From: Allolobophora icterica
Taxonomy: Eukaryota > Annelida > Clitellata > Crassiclitellata > Lumbricidae
Length of the DNA stretch: 64,000 nt
Direction of reading: 5' to 3'
Assembly: GCA_963556255.1 (NCBI GenBank)
Contig: OY744607.1
Span: 53,745,283 to 53,809,282 of the forward strand
Shown: piece after piece, positions 4,943 through 64,000 of the stretch
How positions within the stretch are numbered: position 1 is the first letter of the stretch
Layout: every line of letters begins with the position of its first letter
Translations under genes and position numbers: made by a program
The notes under the pieces: model-generated
The model's input: only the letters and a program-made list of their open reading frames with translations
Database searches by the model: none
What the model was told of the DNA's origin: nothing

Positions 4943-26543
<21,601 letters not shown>

Positions 26544-34668: not shown

Positions 34669-37600
34669 ATGCGGACGATGAGGCGAGGTCCCGCACTGAT
34701 CCGCACCAGTCGTAGGTTCCTCGTGGTCACCGCGGCCCTCTGCGGAACGTGGCTGGCAATGGACGCTCTGCTCTTCTATGCCGGACCTTCCTCTATTAAA
34801 TCCGCGTCGGATCAGGTCAGGGACCCACCGCAAGCCAGGAATCATCGCCTGCTCGAGGAATTCGCCGCAGAAACCGGGAGAGTAGCCTCGTCTTCTGAAG
34901 GGGGCGGTTTCAATCGACAGGGAGCTGTTTTGAGGGACGGAAGACGGAAAGACGGCGAACAAGCACGAGATGAAGACCTTAGAGAAAATCGAGATGATAG
35001 TTTTCTGAAGAGAGAGATGGAGTTAAACGGCATCAACAACGAGCGCCTTCGATTCCAGAAGAATTCTCGGTTGCCCGAAACTGTCGCCAAGAACAGCGAC
35101 GGTCTTCCTTCAAACGAGCAGCTACAAAGAGCCTTCGAAGCTCCAAAAGCAAACGACTTCCCAGAGCTGCCAAATCTCCTTCCAGTGATCCAGTTCGGAA
35201 AATCGGAAAGAGACTCTCTTGCTGGACTCGATGACTTGAACTTAAAAAACTCCGAGAAACTCGTGGAGTCGATGGAACCTGGAGGAATTGACCCAAGTCA
35301 GGCGTTTCCACAGAAGGATTGGAACATTCCGGCGTTCGTAAACCCGATGCCGGACAACGTCATAGAAGCGGCGGACTCAATATTGAACGACGGGAAAAAA
35401 TCCGCTGCAACGAAATTTCCAGGTGTCCTTGAACGACACGGAGCCGATCTTGAAGGTCAACCGAAAATTAAGCAGACTGCGCAAAATACTGAAGCCCAAG
35501 TGCAGCATGACGGAATGATAAAGGAGAGTCAGTATGAGGGAAACCTGGATTTGAAGGCGATCCGTGAAACGATAAGGAACCCCGCAGAAGCGAACGTTCT
35601 AGAACAACAGCAGAATCTACTGCCTTCAAAGCAATCCATCCACTCGAATGACACCATCCACAGACGCGACGAAAATAAAGTACAAAGACGTGAGAAGCAC
35701 CCAGATTTGGCAACAGATGGCGGAGTTCGGAATCCGGTCGCAACGCCCCATCCCTCGGAAAACCCAGGACCTGCGAAGGAGGTCGAAACTTCGACGAGGA
35801 AGACTTGGAGGAGAGTTTCCCTCGACACAATGAGAGAAGGTTTCGTGCGAATCCGGGACTTTAACGTTCGGATGCTGCCCTTCGATCAAAGCAGTCCTGG
35901 TGAGGATGGTGCAGCAGTCTCGACGTCCATCTTCGAGCAAAAGAGAGTGGAAGCGATGTGGAGTCTGTCCTACTTCAACCAGCTGGCCAGCGATAAGATC
36001 TCCGTCGAGCGGTCGATTCCCGATACCCGACATCCCCTCTGCCGCGAGAAGGGGTACAACTACTCCCTCTTACCCCGTGTCAGCGTCATCATCTGCTTCA
36101 CGGACGAATGGTGGTCCGCTCTTGCCCGCTCGGTCCACAGCGTACTGGACCGTACTCCGCCGGAGATCCTCGAAGAGATCCTACTCCTCGACGACTTCAG
36201 CCAACGTCCAGACCTCAAGGACCCTTTGGGAAACTACCTGGCCGCTTACTCCAAGGTGCGACTGATCCACCTGGAGGAACGACATGGACTCATCCGCGCT
36301 CGAATGGTCGGCGTCCAGGCGGCCAAGGCCAAGGTCATCGTCTTCCTCGACTCGCATGTCGAGGTGAACCGCGGCTGGCTTGAGCCACTCCTCGAGGCAA
36401 TCCAGCGCAACCCGAAGGTGGTCGTGTCGCCGATTATCGATGGGATTGACGCAATGGACTTCCACTATAAACAGGCGCCAGATACGATCCGCGGTGGGTT
36501 CTCGTGGAATCTCCAGTTTCAGTGGAGATTGATTCCAAACGATGAGATGCAACGACGCAACGAAGACCCAACGGCGACGATTCGAACCCCGACAATCGCC
36601 GGTGGACTCTTCGCCATGGATCGCGACTACTTCTACGAGATCGGGGAATACGATCCGGGCCTGGACGTCTGGGGGGCCGAGAACCTCGAGCTGTCCTTTA
36701 AGACCTGGATGTGCGGTGGGTTGCTGGAGATCGCCCCTTGCTCCCGTGTTGGCCATGTCTTCAGATCGGCCCATCCGTACAGCTTTCCCGGGAAGGCGGA
36801 AACGCTGTACCGGAACAGTATGCGCGTCGCCAAGGTAAATAGAAACTTTCAACTGACATCCCTTTTCCTTCCTCACTTCCATTATTCCTTCCAATTCTTT
36901 CTTCTTTTCTTTATCCCTCCCTTTTCCCTTTCTTTCTTTCTTATATTCATCATTTTCCTGCTTTCATCCATCCTTTCGTCCTTCCTTTCTGCCTTCTCAT
37001 TGATTTATTCCTTCATTCAATCCTTCCTTCCGTCATTTCTTCCTTTCTTTATTCCTTTCTTTTCATAGTCTGTTATTCCTCCTTTTAATCTAGTCTAATC
37101 CAATGACTTCTATATCTAATCTAATCCAATGACTTCTATATTTAATCTAATCTAATCCAATGACTTCTATATCTAATCTAATCTAATCCAATGACTTCTA
37201 TAGCTAATCTAATCGAATTACTTCAATATCTAATCAAATCTAATCCAATGACTTCTATATCTAATCTAATCTAATCCAATGACTTCTATATCTAATCTAA
37301 TCTAATCCAATGACTTCTATATCTAATCTAATCTAATCCAATGACTTCTATAGCTAATCTAGTCTAATCCATTGACTTCTATATCTAATCTAATCTAATC
37401 CAATGACTTCTATAGCTAATCTAATCTAATCCAATGACTTCTATATCTAATCTAATCTAATCCAATTACTTCTATATCTAATCTAATCTAATCCAATGAC
37501 TTCTATAGCTAATCTAGTCTAATCCATTGACTTCTATATCTAATCTAATCTAATCCAATGACTTCTATAGCTAATCTAATATAATCCAATGACTTCCATA

Positions 37601-40344
37601 GCTAATCTAGTCTAATCCAATGACTTCTATATCTAATCTAATCTAATCCAATGACTTCTATAGCTAATCTAGTCTAATCCAATGACTTCTATATCTAATC
37701 TAATCTAATCCAATGACTTCTATAGCTAATCTAATCTAATCCAATGACTTCTATATCTAATCTAATCTAATCCAATGACTTCTATATCTAATCTAATCTA
37801 ATCCAATGACTTCTATAGCTAATCTAGTCTAATCCATTGACTTCTATATCTAATCTAATCTAATCCAATGACTTCTATAGCTAATCTAATCTAATCCAAT
37901 GACTTCTATATCTAATCTAATCTAATCCAATGACTTCTATAGCTAATCTAATCTAATCCAATGACTTCTATAGCTAATCTAATCTAATCCAATGACTTCT
38001 AGATCTAATCTAATCTAATCTAATCCAATGACTTCTATAGCTAATCTAATCTAATCCAATGACTTCTATATCTAATCTAATCTAATCTAATCCAATGACT
38101 TCTATAGCTAATCTAATCTAATCCAATGACTTCTATATCTAATCTAATCTAATCCAATGACTTCTATATCTAATCTAATCTAATCCAATGACTTCTATAG
38201 CTAATCTAATCTAATCCAATGACTTCTATAGCTAATCTAATATAATCCAATGACTTCTATAGCTAATCTAATCGAATCCAATGACTTCTATATCTAATCT
38301 AATCTAATCCAATGACTTCTATAGCTAATCTAATCTAATCCAATGACTTCTATAGCTAATCTAATCTAATCCAATGACTTCTATAGCTAATCTAATATAA
38401 TCCAATGACTTCTATAGCTAATCTAATCGAATCCAATGACTTCTATATCTAATCTAATCTAATCCAATGACTTCTATAGCTAATCTAATCTAATCCAATG
38501 ACTTCTATAGCTAATCTAATCTAATCCAATGACTTCTATAGCTAATCTAATCTAATCCAATGACTTCTATAGCTAATCTAATATAATCCAATGACTTCTA
38601 TAGCTAATCTAATCGAATCCAATGACTTCTATATCTAATCTAATCTAATCCAATGACTTCTATAGCTAATCTAATCTAATCCAATGACTTCTATAGCTAA
38701 TCTAATCTAATCCAATGACTTCTATAGCTAATCAAATCTAATCCAATGACTTCTATAGCTAATCTAATCTAATCCAATGACTTCTATAGCTAATCTAATA
38801 TAATCCAATGACTTCTATAGCTAATCTAATCGAATCCAATGACTTCTATATCTAATCTAATCTAATCCAATGACTTCTATAGCTAATCTAATCTAATCCA
38901 ATGACTTCTATAGCTAATCTAATCTAATCCAATGACTTCTATAGCTAATCTAATCTAATCCAATGACTTCTATAGCTAATCTAATCTAATCCAATGACTT
39001 CTATAGCTAATCTAATATAATCCAATGACTTCTATAGCTAATCTAATCGAATCCAATGACTTCTATATCTAATCTAATCTAATCCAATGACTTCTATAGC
39101 TAATCTAATCTAATCCAATGACTTCTATAGCTAATCTAATCTAATCGAATTACTTCTATGGCTAATCAAATCAAAAGGAATGACTTCTATAGCTAATCTA
39201 ATCTAATCTAATCCAATGACTTCTATAGCTAATCAAATCTAATCCAATGACTTCTACAGCTAATCTAATCTAATCTAATGACTAAGACATCAGTCGATGG
39301 TCGTTTCAAGTGAAATCACAATCAGAAATCATAATCCATTGGAGAAGCCAGGTTTAAAGTCGATTGATCTAGAAGTCAGCTGCAATCAGATTAGATGAGA
39401 TGGGATTGGATTTATTAGATGGCATTGAATTAGATTAGTTTGGATTGGGGTTAGATTAGATTAGATTAGAGTAAATTGGATTAGAGAAAATTGGATTCCA
39501 TTGGACTGGATTTGATTAGATAGAATTGGAATAAATTGGATTAGATTATAGAAAATTGGATTACACTAGATTGGATTAGATTATATTGGATTAGATTAGA
39601 TTCACTGGACTAATTCAGTCGGTTACCAACTTCTCTTAAGATTTTGTTTCAATTTTCCCTCACATTAAATTATCAGGTTTTCTCGTTTTCTTATTTCTTG
39701 GCTCGATATATTCACCCTTTTGCTATAAAGTGTGTTCAATTTATTCCAAGGTCTGGATGGACGATTACATCAACGTGGTTCTCAAGTACAATCCTCAATT
39801 TAGGGATATCGACACGGGAGACGTCTCCTCTCGCCAGGAACTTCGAACCAGACTTGGGTGCAAGAGTTTCCAGTGGTATCTCGACACGGTCTATCCAGAG
39901 TTGTACGTTCCAAGTTTCACCCCCGTTGCGAGAGGGGAACTACGGAACCTTCAGACGGGAACCTGCATGGATCGCGGAAAGGGCGGGATGATGCAGGTCT
40001 TCCCGTGTCACGGACATATTGCCAGCCAGTACTTCCAGCTGACAGAGGACAATCGTTTGGAAGTGTATACCGAGTGCATCGGGCTCTTCAACGAAACAAT
40101 AAGGGTGATGGACTGTAACATAGACGATCTGGTTCTGCGGCTCAGTCATCCGGAACCCGGTTCCACTCTGATGGATCTGAAGTCCGGGAAGTGCCTTGGA
40201 ATTGATCCGAGGGGTCAGAGGGGTCACCAGCTACTGCAGCTGGCACCCTGTCACCGGTCGCGGAAGGGGCAGAGATGGGTATTTTGGCAGTACAGGGACA
40301 ATAGTACCATCTATACAAACGTGTCGTCCATCGCTGACACCTAA
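34669..40344 (+). CDS. GALNT: Polypeptide N-acetylgalactosaminyltransferase, long-stem type (919 aa)
   Basis: Catalyses transfer of GalNAc from UDP-GalNAc to Ser/Thr, the first step of mucin-type O-glycosylation, in the Golgi lumen. Coding exons 34669-36834 and 39751-40344 join in phase 0 (CAAG|GTAAAT, TTCCAAG). A type II anchor (about residues 15-38) is followed by an unusually long charged stem to about residue 400. The catalytic domain shows Tyr-Phe-Asn-Gln-Leu-Ala-Ser-Asp, the metal-binding Asp-Ser-His (Asp561, His563), Trp-Gly-Ala-Glu-Asn (Trp668) and Val-Trp-Met-Asp-Asp at the exon junction. A C-terminal ricin-type lectin domain covers about the last 130 residues. Stem length recalls GALNT5, but the paralogue is not settled. 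ATG 34669 has A at -3; a 5' UTR exon may start at 34576. Confidence 0.93.
37085..39290. repeat. 31-bp satellite filling the GALNT intron (about 70 copies)
   Basis: A 31-bp unit built from CTAATC repeats plus CCAATGACTTCTATA repeats head to tail. Two main variants differ at TATATCTAAT versus TATAGCTAAT; rarer ones carry ATAATCC or CGAATCC and recur at regular intervals in the second half. It occupies about three quarters of the 2,916-bp intron. Confidence 0.95.
39370..39610. repeat. Degenerate TTAGATTGGATT array
   Basis: Loose GATTAGATTGGA-type repeats, partly the inverse of the satellite's CTAATC core, end about 140 bp before the last GALNT exon. Confidence 0.7.
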
Positions 40345-43038: not shown

Positions 43039-43057
43039 TTAGGCAAATAGCACGATT
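43039..43057 (-). CDS. Cyclase exon 8, very short terminal coding segment
   Basis: Acceptor TTCGTTGTAG in phase 2. The frame reads Ile-Val-Leu-Phe-Ala then TAA (43041-43039). Ile-Val-Leu-Phe fits the family, but the final Cys pair is missing. Confidence 0.6.
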
Positions 43058-46000
43058 CTACAACGAAGAAACGTAAAGCTAAGTTCAACAAGAAGTTAAG
43101 CAAAATGGTAAAATAAGGTAAGGTAAACACTAAAAAAGGTAAGGTAAGGTGAAAAATAAATAAAGATAAGATAACATATCTTACCTTTATTTATTGAAGG
43201 GAATGGTGAATGTAGTCTAAATTAACAAAAAGGTGAATAAGGTAAAATTACACAATGGTAAGTTATGGCAAAGAGGTAAAGTAGAAAAGGTAAAGAATGA
43301 AGGTACTGTAAGTAAAATAAAGGTAAGGTAAGGTTAAGGGTAATTAAAGGCAAGGTAAAAGTAAATAGAGGTAATGTAAACAGTAAATAAAGGTAAGGTA
43401 AGCAGTAAATAAAGGTCTATCTAAATTATAAGACTGCAATCATTCCGATTACATGGTTTACGAAATCTTGCCGTGCTTAAATGTGTGTTACTATAATTAT
43501 AATTAAACATTTATAAAAGCGTTACTTAACGATTCAGAGGCGAAACGCAGTATACAGCGAACTGCAATATGCGACTTAAGCCTTTACTTTCCAAGCGGAT
43601 GAGACCATTCCGTACGATTGTCATCTCGTATAGTCAGGACGGGTGCTCTCTTAAAGAGGCGAAATATAAACAAGCACCTTGCATTTAGAATTGCTTACGC
43701 TGGGTCGTCTGCACATTTGAAGACGATTTTCTTCCGTTCAACGGCAGCCTTCAGATTCAACAGAGTTCCAGTCTTACACGTCTCCCTATGCAACATACAA
43801 GCCAAATATACAGCGTAAATTGTAATAGTAATTGAACATTCATATAGCACCACTCTAAGAGCAAAACAATTTATGATGTCAAATGTCAATACAAGCAAAA
43901 ATATTACATCTGTCAGTCGAACAATGCACAGTAAACTGGAAAAGTCGCCCATTGTGGGACCACGCACACTCGTGGAACCCAACCAACGGATTCCCGTTGA
44001 CAGTCGACAGACGACATGGGTGTTCAGAGTCTCAGAACCCAGTGACGTCGATAGGGTAGGGCGGATAACGTCATTTAAACGTTTCTACATAAAACGTCAC
44101 CGTAACGTCATTCAAACATAGTGTCCATGCATGTACGACGTCATTTCATTATTACATTCATATTGGACATTTATATATAGGACCTCTTCAAGGAGAACTA
44201 CTCAGAGGTGCTCCCGACTCCAGCACGGCTGAAAAGAGCAGTCTAAAGATGAGAAAAGAACATAGGAGAGAGGCTTCTGGGATAAAGCGGAGCGCCAGAG
44301 GGAGGCTATTCCAGGCCGAAGGTCCAACCACCAAGAAAGCACGATGCTGCCTGGTAAAGATGCTGGCAAAGGGAACAAAAAGCAGGCTTTGCATAGTTGA
44401 GCGAATGGATTCGGAGCTCACAAAGGTAGACCGGAGCGAGGGCCAACAAGCAGTGTGATTCTCCTTACAGATTTTATTTTAGTTATAGTTACAGTTATAG
44501 TTAATGGTTTTTCATTTTAGTTATAGTTACAGTTATAGTTACTGGACTTTTATTTTAGTTAATTTTAGTTAGTACATAGTTTAAAATTAACTGGCCCCGA
44601 TGGCGCTGCGCCTGGTCCCTATGGGGTCATCGATTAAATGTCAACAAATTTTCGGCAGTTTTTGATCTTCTCCCCCTTGTCAACAACTGTCAAACATTCA
44701 AGGACCCCTAACAAAATTATGTCAAAGAAAATTACCCCACCCCAGAAAATTTCTATGACTCTAACAAATGCAAAAACTTAAATTGCCGAAAAAAACCAAA
44801 ATGTTGTTATTCAGATTTGAATATGATACTTAATGGCTACAGTACATTTGGAATCGCTGTCTGTCACAGATGTTTAATTGATTTTTTCCTTTCAAAAATA
44901 CAATCTCGTTTTCTGTTAAATTTGATTTTTATTATGAGCATTTCTATGTTGAACATGAAGGTGATAACTCTTTTTTAATATTCCTTTTAACATAGAAAAT
45001 TAAAATCAAAACAAGTTTCTCACTCTTTAAATGACTTCTAATTTTGCGAATTTTCGCTAGTCAACTTGGGTCGTAATCGCTATAGAAACGTTTACACAAT
45101 AATTACACTTATGAGCCCATCGATATCTAAAAAAAAGATGAATGAGCCACTACTAACCTACTGGGTTAATTCACAAATCCAAAATTAGGGGCGAACAACG
45201 CGGTTCTAGCGCATTTTCACATTATCATGTTTATCGATATTGTACTCTTTATTTTATTAACGAAAATAGCGATGAATTTTCGTTAGTGTTATTTTCGTTA
45301 TAGTTATAGTTATAGTTGATGATATTTTTCAGTTATAGTTATAGTTATCGTTAACGAAATCATTTTTTGTTCGTTAACGAAAATTTTCGTTATCGTTAAC
45401 GTTAACAAGAATCACACTGCCAACAAGCAGTGCCAGATCATGGCGGCCAGTTTATATGTGACTCACAAGCTCAAGTGGCAGCCAATAGAGGACGTCGCGT
45501 ATGTAGCTAGTGATGTGACGTGGCCAGTTTTGGGTATGCGGCCTATGATGCGGGCAGCAGAGCGCAGGACTTGATCCGACCACCCCAAGCGGCTAGCAGG
45601 GAAGCAAAGCCAACATAAAGCGAGCAACAATAGTCGAGTCTCGATGTAACAAGGGAGTGGATAAGTTTGGATGTAGCAGAGGGAGTTAGCGACAGTTCGA
45701 ATCTGGCGCAGTTGATTGAAAGAGTCACGACTGAGGAGGTGGATGTGAGGAGCACAAGTGAGCTCTTGGAGCATGATGGCACCAAGGTCATTGATGACAG
45801 TGGAAAAGGTGAAAATTTAATGAGGGAAAGGAGCAGCAAGGGCGGCCAAGTCTAACCTAGCCAATTGCTGTCATGTGCACAGCCAGATAAGTTGGGTTTT
45901 ACAGCGTTAAGCCGCAGCCGATTAGATGACATCCAGGCGTCCCATAACCGTGCTGCATATTACCCTAATTTTATCGCTAACCAGTAGCTATGAACCCATC

Positions 46001-49000
46001 TCATTGAAAGGAACCCAATAAACTCCAGTGAAGATCTTATTACCCTCCCCTATCCGATTACCTGCAGGGTAGTACGTTACCCTACTATCCTCTATCCGAT
46101 TAAGGTGTACAGTACCCTACTCTCCCCTATCCGATTACCTGATGAGTTGCATATTATCCTACTCTCCCCGTCCGATTACCTGATAGATATTTTAGATATT
46201 TTCGTTTATTGCAAAATCAGACTGACACACCGCAGTCAGTAACAGTGGGGTCGGATTAAATTAGAATATGTTTGACAGTTGACAGTGCTGTCTGTACAAG
46301 CATGCTAACATATTGACGTCTGTAAAGAATTCGAGCGATATAGTTACGATCGTCTTTGGCAGGGAGTTTGATACTGTGGTGTCTTGGGCGGAGGTCATAA
46401 TGGCACAGGGCGATCGGTGCAAAAAGAGAGTGAAGGACATGCATCTCTGATCTAACTACTGCTTGGAGTAGTTTAGTCTCTGCAGCTGCAACCATCGTCT
46501 CAAATGATTCCACGGTGTGCGGGAGCAGGGACATTCGCTCCATCTTCCCCAGCAGGCGCTCCAGCCTGGATTGGTCCTCAGCAGATGCAAAGTCCCACCA
46601 GGACGGAGCCGCATAAAGTAGACGTGAGACGGTGGTCTCCTCTGCCACGACTTGCAGGGACTCGGGCGGCAAGCCATGGGCTCTCAGGACCCTTAAGGCG
46701 TGAAGAGAACCGGTGCCCGAGCTAAGGATCCGTTCGATATGTGATGTTGCGCGAAGGTCACTGCTGATGGAAACACCCTGGACAACCATTGATGTTACAC
46801 GCTCAAGAGAAGGGAGGGGAGGGGCAGACATATGCCGCCTGATCTGCGTGTGATCAGCATCTCCGTTGACTTGCTGGCATTGAGCTTGAGGTTGTTCCGG
46901 GAGGCCCAGGCAGCGATCGCCTCTAGCTCTTCGATAATCGTCGTCCTCATCGAAGTGACGACTATGAGGCATGTGTCTTCGGCGAACTTGACGATTCTGT
47001 TCTGGCTGTAAATTGGGTGACATTGACGATGAACATGGGAGGACCGATTGCGGACCCCTGGACGACGCTGGCATTGATGGTTGCCACCGTCCACAGCTGC
47101 CCGGCGAAGCGTGTCATGCGCTTCCGGTCCTGAAGGAAGTCTATCATCCAGTTGTAGACATTATCTGGTATGTCAAGATGAGACAGCTTGCGCGCTAGGA
47201 CGTATTGTCGGACGGTGTCGAAGGCTTTAGAAAAGTCGAGCGAGATTAGGGTGACATATGTGTTTTCTTTTAGAAGAGAGGAGGTCAGTTGGAGAATCGA
47301 GATTAGTGCGGCATTTGTGAAACTCGTCGGTCGAAAGGAGTACTGGTCGGCAAGATGGAGAGACATAGGTTGAGCCCGTAAGGAGGGGTACATGTAAGTG
47401 TGAACCAGGACTCGCTCGACCAGCCTGGACAGAACAGGAACTATGGAGATAGGGCGGAAGTCTGATGGAAGAGTCGGAGAATCGAGAATCGATGAGTTGC
47501 ACATTACCTTACTCTCCTTTATCCAATTACGTGATGAGGTGAATATTACCATACTCTCCCCTATCTGATTAACTGATGAGGTGCAAATTACCCTACTCTT
47601 CTCAATCTATGTCACTGCTGAGGTGCGATATACCATATTCTCCCTATCTGATTACGTGATTCGGTGCACATTACCCTACTCTCCCCATCCAATAACCTGA
47701 AGAGATGCATATTACCCCAGTATCCCCTATCTGACCGATTACCTGATGTCCCGTGGATTATTGCTCTTGTAAATCAGTTCAACACGAAGCACAGGATTGC
47801 GTCTGGATTCCAAGTTGGGAAGTTCGTACAGGGCAAAGATACTGCAATCAACATACAATCAATCAATGCACAATCAATTAATCAACATTATAGATAAACA
47901 ATTTACTTGATTGGAATGGATTTGCATTATGCCTCCCATATTTGGGAATGAAAACTTTCTTGTTTCAACAATCAATATACAATCAATACACAATCAATAT
48001 ACAATCAATAAACAATCAATAAGCAATCAATGAGCAATCAATACGCAATCAACATGCAATCAATACACAATAAATACGCAATAAATACACAATCAATAAG
48101 CAATCAATACGTTGTTGATGAACAATCAACTGTACTGGAATGGAATTATGCCTCCTATATTTGAAGGATAGAAATTTGTCTTGCTTTCTCAACTGTACAC
48201 TCATGCGAATCCCACATCAATACACAATAAATATTATTATTATTATTATTATCTTATATTAGTTTACCTTGCTTCACCTTTCTTAATTTCAACCTGTCTT
48301 TGATTTCTGGATCACTGCTATCATAATGCTCAAAGCATCAATTTATACCTTACAAGTTATATAGCGGAGCTATAGAAAATGGTCAGACTTGACTTTGACT
48401 TACCTTACTTCACATTGCTCCTTCTTACCTTCCTTTACTTTACCTTGCTTACTTTGCTCAATCTTATTACATCACCTTACCTTGCCTTGTTTTATCTCAC
48501 CTTACCTCAACTTACCTTACATTGCCTTACTTTACCTTTCCTTACCCTAGCTTGCTTTGACTTACCTTGGTTTGACTTACCCTGCCTTACCATTCAATAT
48601 CTAATCTTACCTGACCTCAACTTGCCTAACCTTACTTCGCCTTACCTTACTTCGCCTTGCCTTACTTCGCCTTACCTTACCTGACCTTATCTTACTTAAC
48701 TGCGCTTATCTCACCCTGCCTAACTTAATGTTATGCTACCTGACCTGACCTTACCTGAAGTTACCTTGCCTTACCTTCATCTGGATTCGTGAAGCGAAGT
48801 GAAGCTTAAGTAAGTAAACTAGTGGTAGGGTTACCTGTTGAGTTTGTAAGCGCAGCCGCTGCTACCATTCAGCATAAGGTGGACGTCGCCTTGAACAACA
48901 CGGGCAAACTGAATGAAAACAAAAACAAAAATTACCACCAAATTGCAAACAGCATGTTTTTATCAAGACAATTAATATAGCGCTCTTTAGGTACTTTACA

Positions 49001-50715
49001 AAAGGTACGATTTGATTCGATTAGATTAGATTAGATTCAAATTAGATTTAGATTAGATTTAGATTTAGATTAGTAGGCGTTGCATGATTAATACATTTAT
49101 TTCAGAATCAGGCGAGCAGTTTGCTTATGATCCATTTGTAAATGGTAAGTCATGTTACGTTATGTAAAGTTAATGTAATGTTAAGTTTTAGGCTAAGCAA
49201 CTTCTAGAACGTGGACAGATTGATCCGTGGTAGCAAGCGCAGCTCCATCGGGAGTCAAATCCAAGTTATGCTAAGTTATGTTATGTTAACAATATCTTAC
49301 AGCTGCAAGGACCGTGACGTCGATCTTATACCAGAGTCGGACTGGGACCATTTTGGGACCCTTGCGATTTAAATCATGCAAATGGCCCAAGGATCAAACC
49401 AGGCCCATAAAATGCAGTATTTTACGAATTGTTTTGATAGATCGATTGGGGCGATATAGTTGGCGATGGTAGTTCAATGGTCGCTTGGCGAGTTTGCATT
49501 TATTTAGAATATCTGTGCATTCATTCATTCATTCATTCATAGATTTATATAGCGCGTCTTCAAGGAAACTACTCAGAAGCGCTCCCGACTCCAGCACTGC
49601 GAAAAAGAGCAGTTTTCAGGCGGTCATAGAAGTTGCCAGAGGAAGATCTAGGATGTAGGCGCAGCTCAGGTGGAAGGCCATTCCATATGGTCGGGCCGAC
49701 CACCGAGAAGGCACGGGTCTGCATCATAGCATTGACGTATAGTTAATTCCTTTCTGCCCTATTGGCCACATGCGCTGAAACCAGAGGAGCCCGTGTGCCA
49801 CGTGACCAGACGACACATCCTCATCCCTATCTCACCTGCAACATGAACTGTTCAGTCTCTCTTTGCCTCTTTTCCTCAAACGATTGAAGGCCATTCTGTT
49901 TTAATCGTGGTGTTATGTAATGTAATGGAACATTTATGCAAATAGAAGCGCCAAACACGAGGCTAACAGTCAGGTGAACAAATGCTTTCTTAGTTGTCTA
50001 GAAAGGGCAGCAAAATCTCTAATGGTATTAGGGTCAGGCAGCAAAAGTGGAAGTCCATTCCAGATCGTCGTGCTGCAGCTGAAAAAATCTCGATGAACAT
50101 GCGTTATAGCTCGGAAACGCGGCAACAATTGAAAAAATTTCAACTACGCCGATGCCGCCACCTCTCTCTGTTAGGTCGGGAGCGCCTCTGATGAGTCTAT
50201 CTTGAAGTTGCGCTATATAAATTTACAATCACCATTACCATTTCCTAGCGCTGGAAGAGGAATTATATGATCCTTACGCTTCGAGACAGAGCCTTCCAGT
50301 AGGAGTTCTCAGCCTGGAGAGGGCACCGTATACTGTCCGATTCGGGACAGAAAACGGTGTTGATTCCAGGGGAGCTGAGCTGACCGCACCACGCGTCGAG
50401 ATCCGTTACGACGTGGCCTAAACATGCACATATCAAACTATAGATAATTCTGAATCTGTTGAGTGCCAACGTCTATTCTGTTTTGAACCAGGATGCATAT
50501 AAATTGTCCGTATATTATAGAATTTCATTTGTCCGAGAACTCCTACAAAGTTAACTATTTAAACCTACTCCAACCCAAACCACTCATGTATAATATATGT
50601 ATATAAATGTATGAATACAATAATAATAATAAAAATATTAATAGTAATAATAATAATAGTAAATTTATTATTATCATAAAAACTAATAATTATAATTATA
50701 ATAATAATTATAATG

Positions 50716-50759
<44 letters not shown>

Positions 50760-50784
50760 AATAATAATAACAATAATAATAATG

Positions 50785-50865
<81 letters not shown>

Positions 50866-53800
50866 TTAATAATAATAATGATGATACGCTTCGAAACAGA
50901 GCCTTCCAGTAGGAGTTCTCAGCCTGGAGAGGGCACGTTATACTGTCCGATGCGGGACAGGCAAAGGTGTTGATTCCAGGGAACTTGTCCTGACCGCACC
51001 ACTGGTCGAGATCCTTTACGACGTGGCCTAAACATGTGCATATCAAACTATGGATTATTCTGCATCTGTTGAGTGCCAACGTCTATTCTGTTTGGAACCA
51101 GTAATAATTACAATTATAACTATGATTATTGTTATTATTATACATATTGAAGTCACTAGCAATTATCACCTTTTATACTATTACTATTACTATTATTATA
51201 ATTTTTTTATTTCACTCCCTCAGGGACTTAGAAATTATTAGTATAATTATTCTGCAACGGCTACCCCTCTTCAGTGTCGGACAGAGCTTTGACAAAGTAA
51301 TCGCTGAACGCCACGGCATTAAAGCGTCGAAAAGTTATAGAGAGTCGCTGAAACAGAAAGCTGATCTCTCGGGGTTCGCCTGTAGCTTGAGTGAGGTGAC
51401 GGCCTAAGTCCGAAATAAAATCAACGCCCTTGTTGTTAATTGGGCCTAACGTTTCAACAGCTAACGGGATAAAGACATGCGACTTGAGGAATAGCATTGC
51501 ATTTCTTGTTTTTTCTGTCCTTTGCCGTCTCTGCCGCTGCTCCGGCTCGAGAGACTGTTGCGGAGAGATATGATGGCGCGAGCGCATCCATCACCGTGGC
51601 GTCCCAAACTAGGCCCCTGCCGGCTCTCCAAGGGATGAGGGTTATGCCATCCGGTCTTTTGCCGTGTGATCGGCTCAGGCCCCGTGGCTCCTTAACCGCA
51701 GGGCTCGGCATAATATTATCAGGTCGGTGATAACACCGTGTCTAACCACACGCCCAAAGCCTAGTGCGCAGCTAACTTCCCCTCTCGCTCAATCTCAGAC
51801 CGAAGGAAGTGACCGGCATAGAGACTGATAGAGTTGAGCCAGTCGGTGGCGTGTTGGGAGAGCTTTCCAGCGATCTTGGTCATATTTTTCCGAGACGATC
51901 CGTTCCAGGTGTTGCTTGTTCCATTTAGATTTTATGTGCGATGGGAAGTCATTTGTGATTGTAATCTCCAGGTCCGCCTGCCATTGCGCTGATAGTGCCT
52001 CGAAATGCTGGTCTGGATGGTTTATGGACGTTTGAGATGCAGTACTGAAAAGGGGAAATTTCCAACATAGAAATTTTTCACAAACGTTTAGGGGGTCTAC
52101 TATTCATCGGGCGGCTACTTCACATTCAACAAGACAGTGCCTCTGCACACCGAGCACGTGAGACCATTGCTCTGCTGTCCCGGGAGACACCCGACTTCAT
52201 ATCCCCGCAGCTGTAAACTTGAGATGCCGCCCAACAATCCAGACCTCAATCAACCAGACTATCAAATCTGGAGTGTACTGGAGGAGCGCGTTTATCGTTC
52301 CCGCATTCGTGACGTTGATCACCTGATCATCTGATTGAAGGGTGGCAGCTGTTTGACCACGTGATCATCGACCGGGCCATAAGACAGTGGCGTCTACGGT
52401 CTTGTGTCCGTTAACAAGGAGGACATTTTGAACACCAGCTGTAGCTGAACTTCACTTCCTTATAGCTCTTGTATGTTGGAAATTTCTTCTTTTCAGTACT
52501 GCATCTCAAACGTTCATAAACTTTACAAACTCACTAACATTTCCAAACGGCGTTACGATTTGGTGGTAATATGGCTACTGTTGTTGTTTTTAAAACTTCA
52601 GGCAAATGCTAAAAGTCTTGACCGAGTTATGACACTTTTTCTTCGGGTCTACTTTTCATCTGGACACAGTGTAGATCAGATTAGACTGGAATGGATTAGA
52701 CTAGATTGAATCAGATTCTAACCTTCCAGAGTGTCCGCTCTCGTTATAAACCTTCTGGCTTTCGCTAAGTATTTATATACGAACGAAGTGGAAACACCGC
52801 TCCAGTACATCGCCTACATCGACATTAGTCATGGTATAATAAGGTAAGGTATAATAAGACAAGGTTTAATAAAATGAGTTATAACAAGGTATGGTATTAA
52901 AAGGTATGGCATAATAAGTTATGGCATAATAAGGTATAATCTGTTCAGATATCATGAGGAAAGGTATAGGGTAAGGTATTATAAGGTAAGACATAAGTTA
53001 AGGTATAATAAGATAAGGTGTAATGAGGTATGATACAATAAGGTAAAGCATAATAAGGAGAGGTATAAAAAGGTAAGGCAACAGGTAGGACATAATAGGG
53101 TAAAGTAAAACAAAGGTATACTGAGGTAAGGCATAATAAGGTATGGTCATTGCAAGACAGGGTAAGGCAATAATAAGGTTAAAGGTCATAGCCAATAAAG
53201 TAACATACCAAAAGGTCAAGTTCAGTTTATGCAAAGCAAAGCACGCCAAGTAAGGTAAGGTTCACTCATTCCTTCATTAATAGAAGTTATATAGCGCTTC
53301 TCCGAGATAACTACTCAAGTTGCTTAAGGCGTGGCAAGGAATGGTAAGGTAATAAGGTCAGGTAAGGTAACATAAAGCAAGGTTAGGTAAAGTGACGTGA
53401 GCATGGTAAAGTAAGGTAAGTCAGGTAAGGTATTATAGTAAGGAGAGACAAGGCATGGTGTTATGTTAAGGCAAGGTATTTTAAGGCAAAGAATGTTTAG
53501 GTAAGGTAAGCTATAGTAAGATGACACAAGATATGGCGGTATGTTAAGGTAAGTTATGGTACGATGATGAGAAAAAAGTATGGTTATATTCTAATGAAAG
53601 GTATGTTATGGTATGGTGAGGTAAGTTACAAGTATGGTGGTATGGTAAGACAAGGTAAGGTAAGGTGAGCTGTGGTAAAATAGGACAAGGTAAGGTATGG
53701 TGTATGGTAAGGCATGGTGTGTCAAGGTATTTTTAGGTATGGTATGGTCATTAGTCAGGTTTGGTAACCTGTTTGCGCCGTTCGTCACTGGGATCTTCAA

Positions 53801-56800: not shown

Positions 56801-58575
56801 TGCCCAGGGCCTGCCATGCTGACAGCTGTTACGACGGCACTGTCTGAAAGTCAGCAAATCCAAAACCTGCTTTGGAGATCGTACGTTCTCCGATGCAGGA
56901 CCTAAACGTTCGAACAATATTCCACCTTCGATACGTTCTGCAACTTCATTGAAGTCATTTAAGACCAGACTCAAGACATATTATTTCAAGCCGGCTTATA
57001 CTGAACTGTGTTGAACTTGTCAAAGCGCCCTTGTTACGGTATGTATCGTGTTACGGCGCTGTAGAAATCGTCGTATTCATCATCATCAACAATGTAAGGT
57101 AAGGAAGACAAGGTTTGGCATGGCATGGTATGTTAAGAAAATGTAAACTGTGGTAAGGTAAGGTATGGTAATACCAGCCATGGTATGGTATAGTAAGAAA
57201 AGGTAGGCTATGGTATGGTAAGGCATGGTAAGACAAGGTCAGCTATGGTAAGGAAAGGTAAGACAAGGTAGACTAGGGTAAGGTATGGTAAGATAGGGTA
57301 AGGTACATTATGTTTGTGTCAGGTAATGTAATTAAGATAATGTAGGATATGGGGTATGGAATAGGTATAGACGGCGTTAGTGACGAGAGGTAAAGAATTG
57401 TAGGCCCTACATTATATGTCTTTAATTTACCCTATCCTGTGTGCAGATGTCACGCTTGGCGGCCAGTAGAAAAGGATCGTAGCTGGCAACCGTAACGTTA
57501 CATGGATCCTTGTACTTGTACGCTTGATTGAACAACTGTAACAGTTTGTTGCAGTCCTTCAAGCTGCGATTTCAAAAATACAACATAAGTAATGCGAACG
57601 TTTTCAAGAGTGCATGATTATGCAAGGCAAGGCAATGAAATGGTTTCAAAGGTAAAGTAAGACAAAATGATACAAGGTAATGTAAGGCAAGGTAAGATAC
57701 GGTGAGATAAAGCAAGGTGAGACAAGAAAAGGAAAGGCAACGCAATACAGTTCAAAAGGTCTATGATACAGTGAGGCAAGGTCAGGCACGATAGAGTAGC
57801 GTAAGTAGGGTGATGTCGTTTCTTTTCTGCCTTCCGGGACACCACAGCGCAGAGACATAGACTACATTGACATCTCTGAGTGATAAGCAGAAACGTAAAT
57901 TACGTAATCTAAGCAATATAGACGAGTGTCAAATCGTATTTATTTTTTGTAATTTCCTGCACAACGCAACAACTTTTTTGCCTTTGACAGACTTATGAAA
58001 AGTTTGGGAATCCATATTGAAGTTCATGTTGATCAGAAGTTCTACAGTTGAGCATCTATTTCTTGTATAGGACCAGAATGATTCCATCAAGCTAAACACT
58101 CTTTCTACTGCAGCGTTTGAAGCAGATATGCTCATGATGAATGCGAATATCATCAAACGATCTGATAAATTGTCAGTTCCTGCTTTTTGGAATACACCTG
58201 CCCGTGTTTAATTATAAATAAAAAAAATTATGCTGGACATTTCATTGTTCCGGAAAGGACGTGTCCGGGACGAGAGACTTTTCAAATTTCGGAACTGTCC
58301 CGAACAATCCGGGACATGTGGTCAATATAAATGTAAGGCAAGGCAATGTAAGCTAATGCAAGTATTGTATTGTAATGCATTGTAATATTGAAAATTAAAT
58401 TTATTATTGTCCACAGTACTCACTCGTTAACGAACAAGTCCGGTCTTATGACTCGCTGATATTCGTTACACCGTTTAAGAATGAGCTCGTCAATGTTCGC
58501 TGGGGTCCCTCCTCCGTGCACGGCTTCTGTCAACAGCGCAACGCAAACACTCAGAATCATGTGGGATTTCCACAT
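43039..58575 (-). CDS. ADPRC: ADP-ribosyl cyclase / cyclic ADP-ribose hydrolase family protein (CD38/BST1/Aplysia cyclase)
   Basis: The family makes cyclic ADP-ribose and NAADP from NAD(P) for calcium signalling. Exons in transcript order: 58575-58424, 57563-57431, 52813-52723, 51027-50888 or 50417-50278, 48908-48835, 47841-47743, 43785-43699, 43057-43039. All phases agree; either exon 4 gives 264 codons plus stop, near the family's usual length. Exon 1 has a signal peptide (MWKSH, then about 15 apolar residues) and the Lys-Arg-Cys start. Exon 2 has Asp-Pro-Cys-Asn-Val-Thr and exon 3 Tyr-Trp-Ser-Gly-Val. Exon 4 has Trp-Cys-Gly-Gln and Ser-Tyr-Trp (CD38 Trp189 position), exon 5 Val-His-Leu-Met-Leu-Asn-Gly-Ser, and exon 6 Tyr-Glu-Leu-Pro-Asn-Leu (catalytic Glu position). 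No membrane anchor is visible, so it is probably secreted or vesicular. The usual Thr-Leu-Glu-Asp-Thr signature reads Thr-Arg-Ala-Asp-Thr. Confidence 0.9.
43080..43425. repeat. AGGTAAGG-type array (intron 7 of cyclase gene)
   Basis: Degenerate AAGGTAAGGTAAA units with AAATAAAGG variants. No coding signal. Confidence 0.8.
43699..43785 (-). CDS. Cyclase exon 7
   Basis: 87 bp, acceptor GTTGCATAG, donor CAGC|GTAAGC, phase 2 to 2. Thr-Cys-Lys-Thr-Gly-Thr-Leu-Leu ... Phe-Lys-Cys-Ala-Asp-Asp-Pro aligns by eye with the C-terminal part of Aplysia cyclase. Confidence 0.82.
44165..45885 (-). mobile_element. LINE 3' portion, split by a MITE
   Basis: Minus-strand frames at 45839-45463 (Ser-Arg-Leu-Asp-Tyr-Cys block and Arg-Ile-Ile-Gly-Arg-Ile-Pro block) and 44421-44188 (Val-Val-Gly-Pro-Ser-Ala-Trp-Asn-Ser-Leu-Pro) are successive parts of one LINE C-terminus. 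A 969-bp element lies between them. The 3' end at 44165 is the ATTTATATA(G)-type signature. The copy is decayed and sits in intron 6 of the cyclase gene, same direction. Confidence 0.7.
44451..45419. mobile_element. hAT-type non-autonomous element, 969 bp
   Basis: Perfect 12-bp terminal inverted repeats CAGTGTGATTCT / AGAATCACACTG are flanked by the exact 8-bp target duplication CCAACAAG (44443-44450, 45420-45427). Both ends contain TTATAGTTATAG-like subterminal repeats. No transposase is encoded. Confidence 0.88.
46025..47755. repeat. Minisatellite of about 42 bp grown from a splice donor, interrupted by a LINE
   Basis: Units at 46025-46190 and 47495-47755 read, on the minus strand, CATCAG-GTAATCGGATAGGGG followed by AGAGTAGGGTAATATGCAC. 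The unit at 47743 contains the real exon 6 end and donor. Roughly ten units are seen in total. Confidence 0.8.
46200..47512 (-). pseudogene. CR1/jockey-type LINE reverse transcriptase, decayed
   Basis: Minus-strand frames cover Asp-Phe-Arg-Pro-Ile-Ser, a Leu-Asp-Phe-Ser-Lys-Ala-Phe-Asp block, a Gln-Gly-Ser-Ala-Ile-Gly-Pro block and, after a frameshift near 46990, Phe-Ala-Glu-Asp where Tyr/Phe-Ala-Asp-Asp is expected. The C-terminal half is open to 46256. The changed catalytic motif and frameshift mark an inactive, 5'-truncated copy lying in the minisatellite. Confidence 0.75.
47743..47841 (-). CDS. Cyclase exon 6 (catalytic Glu)
   Basis: 99 bp, acceptor GATTGCAG, donor ATCAG|GTAATC, phase 2 to 2. 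Tyr-Glu-Leu-Pro-Asn-Leu holds the catalytic glutamate position. The donor region is the first unit of a tandem minisatellite. Confidence 0.85.
47845..48120. repeat. CAATCAATACA-type short tandem array
   Basis: Roughly 10-bp units of AATCAATACAC repeat through two blocks separated by a unique 80 bp. Confidence 0.75.
48370..48790. repeat. CCTTACCTTACTT array
   Basis: Degenerate pyrimidine-rich ACCTTACCTT units, the reverse complement of the AGGTAAGG families elsewhere. Confidence 0.85.
48835..48908 (-). CDS. Cyclase exon 5
   Basis: 74 bp, acceptor CATTCAG, donor AACAG|GTAACC, phase 0 to 2. The Val-His-Leu-Met-Leu-Asn-Gly-Ser run matches the Val-Met-Leu-Asn-Gly-Ser stretch of CD38. Confidence 0.85.
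48965..49535. other. Intron sequence with LINE-end signature and weak repeats
   Basis: AATATAGCGCTC at 48975 is a LINE-end signature. GATTAGATTTAGATTAG repeats follow at 49010-49070, then sequence I cannot assign. Confidence 0.4.
49536..49735 (-). mobile_element. LINE 3' end, minus strand
   Basis: The reverse strand encodes Arg-Ala-Phe-Ser-Val-Val-Gly-Pro-Thr-Ile-Trp-Asn-Gly-Leu-Pro and Leu-Lys-Thr-Ala-Leu-Phe, then runs to ACGCGCTATATAAAT at 49543. This links the signature directly to a LINE C-terminus. Confidence 0.75.
50120..50245 (+). mobile_element. LINE 3' end, plus strand
   Basis: TTGCGCTATATAAATTTAC followed by an ATTACCATT tail marks a plus-oriented copy ending about 30 bp beyond the distal exon 4 donor. 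Confidence 0.5.
50278..50417 (-). CDS. Cyclase exon 4, 3'-distal alternative copy
   Basis: 140 bp, acceptor CATGTTTAG, donor AAGC|GTAAGG (closer to consensus than the other copy), phase 1 to 0. It encodes the same segment with Leu-Ser-Ser after Trp-Cys-Gly-Gln. Ten of 46 codons differ from the proximal copy, all changing the residue. Confidence 0.87.
50605..50885. repeat. AAT microsatellite between the two exon 4 copies
   Basis: AATAATAAT with AATG interruptions separates the duplicated exon units. Confidence 0.92.
50888..51027 (-). CDS. Cyclase exon 4, 5'-proximal alternative copy
   Basis: 140 bp, acceptor CATGTTTAG, donor AAGC|GTATCA, phase 1 to 0. It encodes the Trp-Cys-Gly-Gln to Ser-Tyr-Trp-Lys segment with Asp-Lys-Phe after Gln. 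An AAT microsatellite starts within about ten bases of the donor. The copy duplicates 50278-50417 together with roughly 75 bp of upstream intron. Confidence 0.85.
51260..52020 (-). pseudogene. Degraded LINE C-terminus with nuclease-like motif
   Basis: Two overlapping minus-strand frames match the 30646-31749 protein: Glu-Pro-Arg-Gly-Leu, Lys-Arg-Pro-Asp-Gly-Ile-Thr-Leu-Ile-Pro-Trp, Trp-Asp-Ala-Thr, then Phe-Leu-Phe-Gln-Arg-Leu-Ser. A frameshift near 51510 and stops break it. Its 3' side is an ATT-type tail (51120-51260). Confidence 0.7.
52021..52520 (+). mobile_element. Mariner-type deletion derivative, 500 bp
   Basis: Terminal inverted repeats of 49 bp with three mismatches (52021-52069 and 52472-52520) enclose a transposase remnant. 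It shows Gln-Gln-Asp-Ser-Ala-Ser-Ala-His and, about 34 residues on after a frameshift, Asn-Pro-Asp-Leu-Asn-Gln-Pro-Asp-Tyr. These are the second and third catalytic Asp motifs of mariner-like DD34D enzymes. TA occurs at both outer edges. Confidence 0.72.
52723..52813 (-). CDS. Cyclase exon 3 (Trp-Ser-Gly and altered TLEDT signature)
   Basis: Acceptor TCGATGTAG, donor GAAG|GTTAGA, phase 0 to 1, 30 codons plus one base. The order Tyr-Trp-Ser-Gly-Val ... Phe-Ile-Thr-Arg-Ala-Asp-Thr-Leu-Glu-Gly follows Aplysia cyclase, but Leu-Glu of the signature is Arg-Ala. The plus strand is also open here, a shadow. Confidence 0.85.
52840..53760. repeat. AAGGTATAATAAGGTAAGG arrays
   Basis: Two blocks (52840-53260 and 53335-53760) of AGGTA-based repeats flank a LINE-end signature TTATATAGCGCTTC at 53287. 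Confidence 0.85.
53761..54730 (+). pseudogene. CR1/jockey-type LINE with internal deletion
   Basis: The first frame (53761-54041) has the N-terminal reverse transcriptase blocks (Ser-Tyr-Arg-Leu-Ile-Ser, Leu-Leu-Glu-Arg-Ile-Leu). After a short non-matching segment, 54340-54720 encodes the C-terminal Tyr-Leu-Leu-Asp-Arg-Leu-Gln-Ser-Val-Leu-Asn block. The catalytic core between them is missing. Confidence 0.75.
55045..55315 (+). mobile_element. LINE C-terminal fragment
   Basis: Trp-Asn-Asn-Ile-Pro-Pro-Ser-Ile-Arg and following residues match LINE C-termini; ends at TGA 55307. It follows an ATTGTTGTT array (54955-55025). Confidence 0.55.
55600..55935 (+). mobile_element. Possible LINE C-terminal fragment
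   Basis: Ala-Pro-Ala-Leu-Trp-Asn-Asp-His-Pro-Lys-Glu-Ile-Arg is LINE-like; the remainder of the frame (to 55930) is Ser/Pro-rich and not diagnostic. From 55940 to 56870 I see only AT-rich sequence. Confidence 0.4.
56865..57060 (+). mobile_element. LINE 3' end
   Basis: A frame with Gly-Asp-Arg-Thr-Phe-Ser, Asn-Asn-Ile-Pro-Pro-Ser-Ile-Arg and Phe-Lys-Thr-Arg-Leu-Lys-Thr-Tyr-Tyr-Phe ends at TGA, then GGCGCTGTAGAAATCG and a CATCATCATC tail. Confidence 0.65.
57090..57310. repeat. AGGTATGGTAAGG array
   Basis: Another member of the AGGTA family; a further block lies at 57615-57795 in the adjacent intron 1. Confidence 0.8.
57431..57563 (-). CDS. Cyclase exon 2
   Basis: Acceptor ATCGCAG, donor AGG|GTAAAT, phase 2 to 0. 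It carries the Lys-Asp-Cys and Asp-Pro-Cys-Asn-Val-Thr motifs that identify the family. Confidence 0.88.
57930..58200 (-). pseudogene. hAT transposase C-terminal dimerisation domain relic
   Basis: The minus-strand frame 58156-57929 has Ser-Ala-Ser-Asn-Ala-Ala-Val-Glu-Arg-Val-Phe-Ser and Arg-Asn-Arg-Cys, the pattern of the hAT family C-terminal domain. Only this end is visible, within intron 1 of the cyclase gene. Confidence 0.65.
58424..58575 (-). CDS. Cyclase exon 1: signal peptide and N-terminus
   Basis: ATG at 58575. The 50 codons end in phase 2 at CGA|GTGAGT. The extra phase-2 GA plus C from exon 2 makes Asp. Confidence 0.85.
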
Positions 58576-61722: not shown

Positions 61723-64000
61723 CTAATTCCTAAACTTCTTCAACGCAAAGATTACGGCATACGCTTCGCGTTCCACAGTGGACCAACGCGCTTGCGTAGC
61801 ATCTAATTTAGAACTGGCGAAACATATTGGCCGTTCTGTTCCATCGTCTTGAATTTGGAATAAGCAGCAACCGACTGCTTTGTCTGAAGCGTCAGTCGAT
61901 AGACCAAACTCTCTGCCGTAGTCAATTGTCTGCAAACATACAGCGTGGTTTAAATCGTGCGTAAGTTTATCTAGCGCATTTTGGTGTTCAGCTCGCCAGG
62001 GTATCTTAGCAGGCACCGATTTCTGGGTCAAGTCAGTGAGAATTCTGGCTGTCTCAGCCAGGTTAGTGATGAAGTTCCTAAAATAACTGAAGAAACCAAT
62101 TATTCTCCGTATGTCCTTTTTGGACTCGGGTTGAGGGATTTTCCCTAGCCCTTCGATTTTAATGGGATCCGGCTCAATGCTCCCTGATCCGATCAGGTGA
62201 CCTACAAACGTTGTTTGTCGCCTAGCAAACGAACTCTTCTTAATGTTAAGGGTCAGACCCGACTGTTGAATTGTCGTTAAATATTTCTCTAGGTGTTTCA
62301 TGTGATCCGGCCACGTCATCGAGTGCACTGCCATGTCATCCACAAACGTCTCAGTGAAGTCGCGAATGGGATGAAGGACCTTTGACATGCAGCGGATGAA
62401 AGAATTTGAGGCTGATTTCAAACCAAAGGGTAATCGCACAAATTCAAATAGGCCAGCGTCACATACGAAGGCTGATAGCCAACGAGAGTCCTTGTGGAGT
62501 CCAATCTGGTAGTATCCTTGACGTGCGTCAAAGCAGGATATGAAGTTTGCACTTCCCACCTTCTGTAACACTTCCTGGATGTCGGGGGTGGGGTATGCGT
62601 CACCCGCTGAGAACTTGTTTACATACCGGTAGTCAATGGCCAGTCTTAAACCGCCTTGACCTCCCTTTTTCACAACGCACACAACGGGACTAGCCATTTC
62701 ACTATGTGAGGGAGTGATGATACCTAGGGCCAAAAGTTCGCGGATCTGCTTCTCCATCTTCGGTCTGAGCAGTTCCGGCACCTTATAGGCTCGCAAACTC
62801 TTCGGCCTGAACTCCGCGCTAACAGTGATTGTGTGTTCTAGGACGGGACAGAACCCTGGTTTGCCCGAGAACACATCTGGAAACCTGTCTAACAGATTAA
62901 ACAGCTGTTTCCGTTCGGGTACCGTTAAGTGTGCAACGGCCTTAGGGTCTACTTGTGCACTGGGCCTTGTCTGACTCGTGACGAAGCTACCCACTGCTTC
63001 CACGTGACCGAAGTCTTCGTCCTTCTCGAACAGAATGGAGCAATTGTTAATCAATGCTTGCTGTATTCTTTCGTTATATTTGCGAATACGATTTGCGTGC
63101 AATAGGCGGCTCTTGCCCCCTATCTCCACGATGTATGTGTAGGGCGATTTCACCTGAACGATGATGGCCGGGCCTTGCCATTGGCCCTCCTTCTTTGCTC
63201 CTCGCGCTTCCGGTGATTGGATGATGACTTTGTCCCCTACTTCATAACGCCTGTCCATGCTTCTTAAATTGTAATGAGTAGCATAGCGCTGCTGTTCAAT
63301 GTCTGAATAATATTCGGCATATAACTTAGACATTTCAAGGTTATCCCTTAATTGGTCCAAGTAAGCCGCGGCGCCTGCGCCCAGACTTAATGGAGAATCC
63401 CGCTCTCCCGCCCATTCCTCAGAAAGGACAGATAGAGGTCCTTTAGGCAGGGTACCATACACCAGGGTGTAGGGACTCACGTGGGTGGTTGCCGAGGGGC
63501 GTTCTCTTAAGCTCCAAAGCACGTAAGGTAACAGTCTGTGCCATCCCCTCGGGTTTTCTTCTGCCAATTTATGAATCATGGTCTTCAGTGTGGCATTGCA
63601 GCGCTCCACTAGACCTTGTGACTCAGGATGTGCGACTGGCCCAAAGCGTGGTGAGCACCCCATACGCTGCAGACACTCTTGGGTTAATTTGCTGTTGAAA
63701 TTCGACCCGTTATCGGACCGAATCGTTTTTGGAAAACCGAAGGTCGTGAAGATCTGCATATATGCATCACATGTCGCTTTTGCCGTTAATGATTTCAGAG
63801 GATAGGCCATCGGCCATCTTGAAAATTGGTCAACTACCACTAAGGCGTAGTTGTACTCGGGTTTTGGGCTTGTGGGGTCTACGTTGGTTACTATAGGCCC
63901 AATACAATCTGCCACTAGGCAACCGAATCTGGTCTCGTCGTTGCGAGGGATAGAAGTTATGGGGGCACGCTGCGCCACTCGCAGCGGCGCATGCCTTTGG
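61723..64000 (-). pseudogene. pol: Pol of second Gmr1-like copy, with premature stop in RNase H
   Basis: Continuous frame from the window edge through integrase, reverse transcriptase (Val-Asp-Asp present) and part of RNase H. It stops at TAG (61725-61723) where the first copy has a Trp codon TGG, a single G-to-A change. The sequence beyond the stop still encodes the rest of RNase H to about 61545. Otherwise it is nearly identical in protein to the first copy. Confidence 0.88.

Follow-up and report, generated by a model that had tools for sequence, protein, structure and literature searches.

In a window of 64,000 nucleotides from Allolobophora icterica (the whole stretch of DNA analysed here), exon 4 of an ADP-ribosyl cyclase gene is duplicated in tandem, and the duplication is real and has correct frame logic. 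The most economical reading of the two copies, to which we give a probability of roughly 0.55, has 4A as the working exon and 4B as a copy that is silent or fading. With its poor splice signal and the loss of an active-site serine, 4B has the look of a fading duplicate more than that of a tuned switch. Exon 4 and 74 nt of its upstream intron would have been copied in tandem within a fast-evolving gene of the CD38/Aplysia type. 4A would be the exon used in the enzyme mRNA, and 4B, probably skipped in most or all transcripts, would be a silent and slowly decaying duplicate. Splicing of 4B together with 4A would break the frame, and such an mRNA should be degraded. That all codon differences between the copies are replacements would be largely an effect of small numbers, to which tandem double mutations contribute.

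The cyclase gene lies on the minus strand, from 58575 to 43039, with eight coding exons (Table 1), and each isoform (4A or 4B) has 264 residues. The family assignment made in the first-pass annotation was upheld by PF02267 domain matches of 196.1 bits for the 4A isoform and 190.1 bits for the 4B isoform, at a Pfam gathering cut-off of 25. The best solved relative by sequence was the Aplysia cyclase (E 1.6e-42). The catalytic Glu203 and the two active-site tryptophans, Trp99 and Trp166, are kept, and Trp99 in exon 3 is presumably CD38 Trp125. A protein search for a sequence from the source species returned none close enough (best match 59%), and a 101-residue query found no fragments.

Table 1. 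Positions in the window of the cyclase exons and of the elements around the duplicated exon 4, in transcript order
Feature	Positions	Strand	Remarks
Exon 1, coding part	58424..58575	(-)	hydrophobic start
Exon 2	57431..57563	(-)	
Exon 3	52723..52813	(-)	Trp99
Copied upstream intron, copy B	51028..51101	(-)	74 nt, acceptor TTTAG
Exon copy 4B	50888..51027	(-)	first in transcript; 140 nt; phase 1 in, phase 0 out
Donor of 4B	50882..50887	(-)	AGC/GTATCA; matrix score -6.83; directly adjoins the ATT-rich microsatellite
ATT-rich microsatellite	50620..50884	(-)	AAT on plus strand; intron between 4B and 4A; ends approximate
Copied upstream intron, copy A	50418..50491	(-)	74 nt, acceptor TTTAG
Exon copy 4A	50278..50417	(-)	second in transcript; 140 nt; Ser170 and normal donor
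Donor of 4A	50272..50277	(-)	AGC/GTAAGG; matrix score 0.57, top 12% of 893 GT sites
Exon 5	48835..48908	(-)	
Exon 6	47743..47841	(-)	catalytic Glu203
Exon 7	43699..43785	(-)	
Exon 8	43039..43057	(-)	early end at TAA

The duplicated unit is 217 nt long and differs at 21 of these between the copies (90.3% identity), and 4B and 4A are 470 nt apart. When the unit was compared with the window by blastn at word size 7 and an E limit of 1, there were two hits, itself (8e-112) and the other copy (5e-83), E-values that exclude a chance origin of the repeat. The first-pass annotation had counted 15 base differences in 10 of the 46 codons, all ten of them changing the amino acid, and these counts were reproduced. 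The shared acceptor and donor positions and the exon length were confirmed as well, and the copied intron, previously put at about 6 differences in 75 nt, has 6 in its 74 nt. Both copies have the same three donor nucleotides, GTA. By codon position, 5 of the 15 differences are at the first base, 9 at the second and 1 at the third, and adjacent double changes occur in five codons, a degree of adjacency with P 0.008. The frame argument also held: the phase is 1 after exon 3 and 0 after either exon 4, so that inclusion of both copies or of neither leads to premature stops. 4B is free of frameshifts and retains GT-AG and its reading frame, and no in-frame stop was found in either copy. About 10% of animal genes carry tandemly duplicated exons, as cited in PMC9013439, and in human many of the pairs predicted to be mutually exclusive were no true splice events according to PMC9741552.

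The two copies could instead be truly mutually exclusive and switch, by tissue or stage, between an active 4A form and an altered or non-catalytic 4B form, having been driven apart by selection. Their equal length, phase and acceptor are in line with such a pair, as is the break of the frame when both or neither are included; we nevertheless hold it to be somewhat unlikely, one point against it being the donor of 4B. Donors were scored with a consensus matrix and by U1 pairing energy, against the 893 GT sites of the locus as background. The seven other donors of the gene lie in the top 4.6-14.0% by score and the top 3.0-10.9% by U1 energy. The 4B donor, however, is no better than background, 71% of the GT sites having an equal or better score and 48% pairing at least as well with U1 (-1.5 kcal/mol for 4B). 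The acceptors of 4A and 4B are alike. A candidate short deletion in the 4B donor has a 4-nt match past the gap, and chance yields such a match in 8.6% of trials. Regulated exons can have weak donors. Judged from its sequence alone, 4B largely shows the splice defect in one copy that the first-pass annotation had named as evidence against its proposal.

Competing RNA pairings are one known mechanism of exclusive choice, not a universal one. Six shuffle tests for a docking partner of the copied intron segments gave 48, 50, 24, 1, 8 and 6 of 60 shuffles as strong as the real sequence, the strongest being that of copy A with the inter-exon intron (1/60). No docking site stood out in these tests and no pairing partner was established, which also counts against an exclusive pair. 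The flanks of 4B form a duplex of -62.3 vs -45.0 +/- 4.2, stronger than 100 of 100 dinucleotide shuffles. In a control with the same flank lengths, 144 of 200 random pseudo-exons from the locus showed pairing of at least this strength, a rough figure, since base composition differs between flanks. Pairing around exons 5, 6 and 7 was as strong as or stronger than that around 4B, and around exons 2, 3 and 4A it was weaker. Looping-out of 4B by its AU-rich flanks, suggested by a fold of the whole region, was dropped, the pairing being unspecific by the pseudo-exon control. The claim of mutually exclusive exons thus keeps its frame logic, but exclusion in practice is doubtful, given a 4B donor at background level and no specific pairing found to make the choice.

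The absence of silent differences had been read as a sign of diversifying selection. Between 30 and 37 of the 138 sites are silent, approximately and depending on the transition bias assumed. With the 15 bases taken as independent, binomial P values were 0.025, 0.015 and 0.009 under three transition biases, Fisher's test of pN vs pS gave P 0.041, and codon simulations without stops gave P 0.032-0.060; the binomial and Fisher results argue for an exclusive pair. For 30.2 silent sites, zero silent changes compare with 2.4 expected at the divergence of the copied intron (P 0.08) and 3.0 at that of the whole unit (P 0.04). When the differences were counted as five single and five double events, however, 8.4-13.1% of trials had no silent codon, and this P of 0.08-0.13 counts against a pair. 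No difference in divergence was detected between the exon (15/140) and the copied intron (6/74, Fisher P 0.63), nor did the replacement sites and the copied intron (P 0.34), and equal divergence is what is expected under little net constraint. Diversifying selection is thus favoured by the independent-base tests and unproven once tandem doubles count once, and the zero-silent pattern is suggestive at most. Silent-site counts in a single short exon call for a test that allows for tandem double mutations.

At the protein level, residue comparison with 69 relatives singled out site 170, four residues after the helix Trp166. Of these relatives, 65 came from one collection and four were added from the protein search. 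Here 4A has Ser and 4B has Phe. The relatives have Ser in 65 cases, Ala in three and Gly in one (apparently misaligned), and never Phe, a further point against an exclusive pair; all 44 sequences used for folding also have Ser. We take residue 170 to be CD38 Ser193, four residues after Trp189. The CD38 pocket contains Ser193, Trp189, Glu146 and Glu226, as described in PMC5700923. A literature search found no account of a catalytic role of CD38 Ser193, and nothing on Ser144 of the Aplysia ADP-ribosyl cyclase. Over the ten differing sites, the profile log-odds were -9.5 for 4A and -18.7 for 4B; the gap is mostly due to site 170, and the scores were close when this site was omitted. Residues absent from all 69 relatives occur in 4B at 139, 141, 147 and 170, in 4A at 130, 134 and 148, and in both at site 156, indicating that both copies have moved. 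As the first-pass annotation had stated, changes cluster right after Trp-Cys-Gly-Gln, at residues 139-141.

The ten differences lie on family-variable columns more often than by chance (P 0.03), and the conserved Cys, Trp, Gly and Pro of the 4A segment are all kept in 4B. This bias towards variable columns hints at remaining constraint. The sites were mapped on the secondary structure of the predicted model of the sister sequence P0001 (mean pLDDT 93.2), where eight fall in coil, one in a gap and one, Ser170Phe, in the helix of the active-site Trp. The variable columns, the eight coil positions and the lack of a stop in 4B are compatible with an exclusive pair. Since the tenth change puts Phe for Ser in the active-site Trp helix and the others lie in coil or a gap, lost or crippled activity of 4B is favoured over the earlier proposal that the isoforms differ in substrate or product choice. 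A protein made with 4B in place of 4A should have little or no activity. A working switch between a normal cyclase and a catalytically dead or re-purposed NAD-binding protein, with Phe and a remodelled loop, driven apart by protein-level selection, appears unlikely. In use, the pair would switch splicing between an enzyme and a likely pseudoenzyme of the cyclic ADP-ribose pathway. An unused pair would instead show how a young exon duplicate with an intact reading frame can mimic diversifying selection even as its splice signal and active site fail.

The gene as a whole has changed fast. A tree was built from 63 of the 71 rows, without eight that were short or odd, and in it the gene groups with P0001 (support 99/88) on a branch of 0.67 vs 0.14 for P0001. 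In a relative rate test against this sister, it had 43 changes of its own vs 10 at 197 testable sites (P 5.6e-6). Within the range tested, from residue 24 to the end of exon 7, such changes occur in each of exons 1-7 and are most numerous in exon 3, so fast change is not special to exon 4. Eight of the ten conserved family cysteines are kept, and the terminal pair is absent behind the early TAA of exon 8. The sequence behind this stop, down to 42980 on the minus strand, still resembles the C-terminus of the relatives, and its frame has Ser where the last conserved cysteine would stand. Two cysteines lie outside the conserved set: Cys91 in exon 2, with no Cys there in P0001, P0006, P0007 and P0009, and Cys191 in exon 5, with no Cys there in P0001-P0005. 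They are possibly unpaired or a new pair.

The 43:10 excess, the stop ahead of the last Cys pair and the extra Cys91 and Cys191 would suit a degenerating paralogue in which the exon pair is part of the decay. This is quite improbable, as exons 1-7 are open with usable splice sites and Glu203, Trp99 and Trp166 are retained. In addition, 24 of the 27 columns conserved at 90% or more are kept in the 4A isoform, two of the three losses being the terminal Cys pair, and the 9 losses among the 48 columns conserved at 80% or more are within the 5-12 of the eight nearest relatives. It is very improbable that 4B is a poison exon, at times spliced with 4A and lowering the enzyme level through frame break and mRNA decay; inclusion of both copies does give a premature stop, but it would require the poor donor of 4B. 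An assembly artefact joining two divergent exon 4 alleles in one contig is highly unlikely too, for although the stretch between the copies is largely microsatellite, where assemblies may break, the repeat is only 217 nt, its flanks differ on both sides and 10% divergence is high for alleles.

A single working exon with a fading 4B is consistent with the background-level donor, Phe170, the gap in profile score, the fast gene and the lost Cys pair. Against it stand the open frame, GT-AG, the conserved residues, the variable-column bias, the P values of 0.009-0.06 if changes are independent, the unseen residues that 4A and not 4B has at 130, 134 and 148, and the closeness of the scores without site 170. 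The earlier interpretation was thus supported in part: the family, the duplication, the frame logic and the change cluster stand, whereas diversifying selection is unproven and it is doubtful that 4B is used.

The window also contains other open reading frames. An open reading frame at 17709-22718 (+) belongs to a retroelement with integrase domains ahead of reverse transcriptase and RNase H, that is, gypsy-type domains in a copia-like order, an arrangement that we assume to be that of Gmr1-like elements. By eye, the open reading frame at 61723-63978 (-) is similar to this element, and the repeated frames at 16456-16860 and 22775-23302 are perhaps terminal repeats. A polypeptide GalNAc-transferase-like gene at 34669-40344 (+) has a glycosyltransferase family 2 frame and a separate ricin-type lectin frame. 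Within intron 6 of the cyclase gene, open frames at 46256-47552 (-) resemble, by eye, a non-LTR reverse transcriptase.

In exon count and residue placement, the gene resembles human CD38, with eight coding exons, an exon 4 Trp and an exon 6 Glu. It differs from the CD38, CD157 and Aplysia cyclase genes in the doubled exon 4 and the missing last Cys pair. Human CD38 has eight exons, with Glu-226 in exon six and a functional Trp (numbered Trp-185 there) in exon four, according to PMC9033130, where a legend draws attention to cysteines 8 and 10 of a zebrafish relative. The Aplysia cyclase was the best structural match of the P0001 model (TM-score 0.85 by query length). In the TLED motif, the acidic position is occupied by Ala here, by Glu in 57 of the 69 relatives and by Arg in P0001, P0006, P0007 and P0009.

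A literature search found no paper combining ADP-ribosyl cyclase and a mutually exclusive exon, and the cyclase was absent among the matches listed. The two copies are adjacent and equal to each other in length and phase, like the mutually exclusive tandem exons described in PMC6071210 (Dscam, srp and 14-3-3 zeta) and PMC2581893 (SNAP25 exon 5). Copying of an intron arm could create exclusive exon choice, as modelled in PMC6071210, and the copied 74 nt of flanking intron fits this setting. Unlike those pairs, the present one has a background-level donor and no established competing pairing, and is known from sequence alone. Human CD157/BST1 exon 1b, as presented in PMC5698419, is likewise a lineage-specific extra exon in this family, and its donor is changed in chimpanzee and bonobo; it differs in being a 45-bp in-frame cassette thought to derive from an intron, and not a copy of a catalytic exon.
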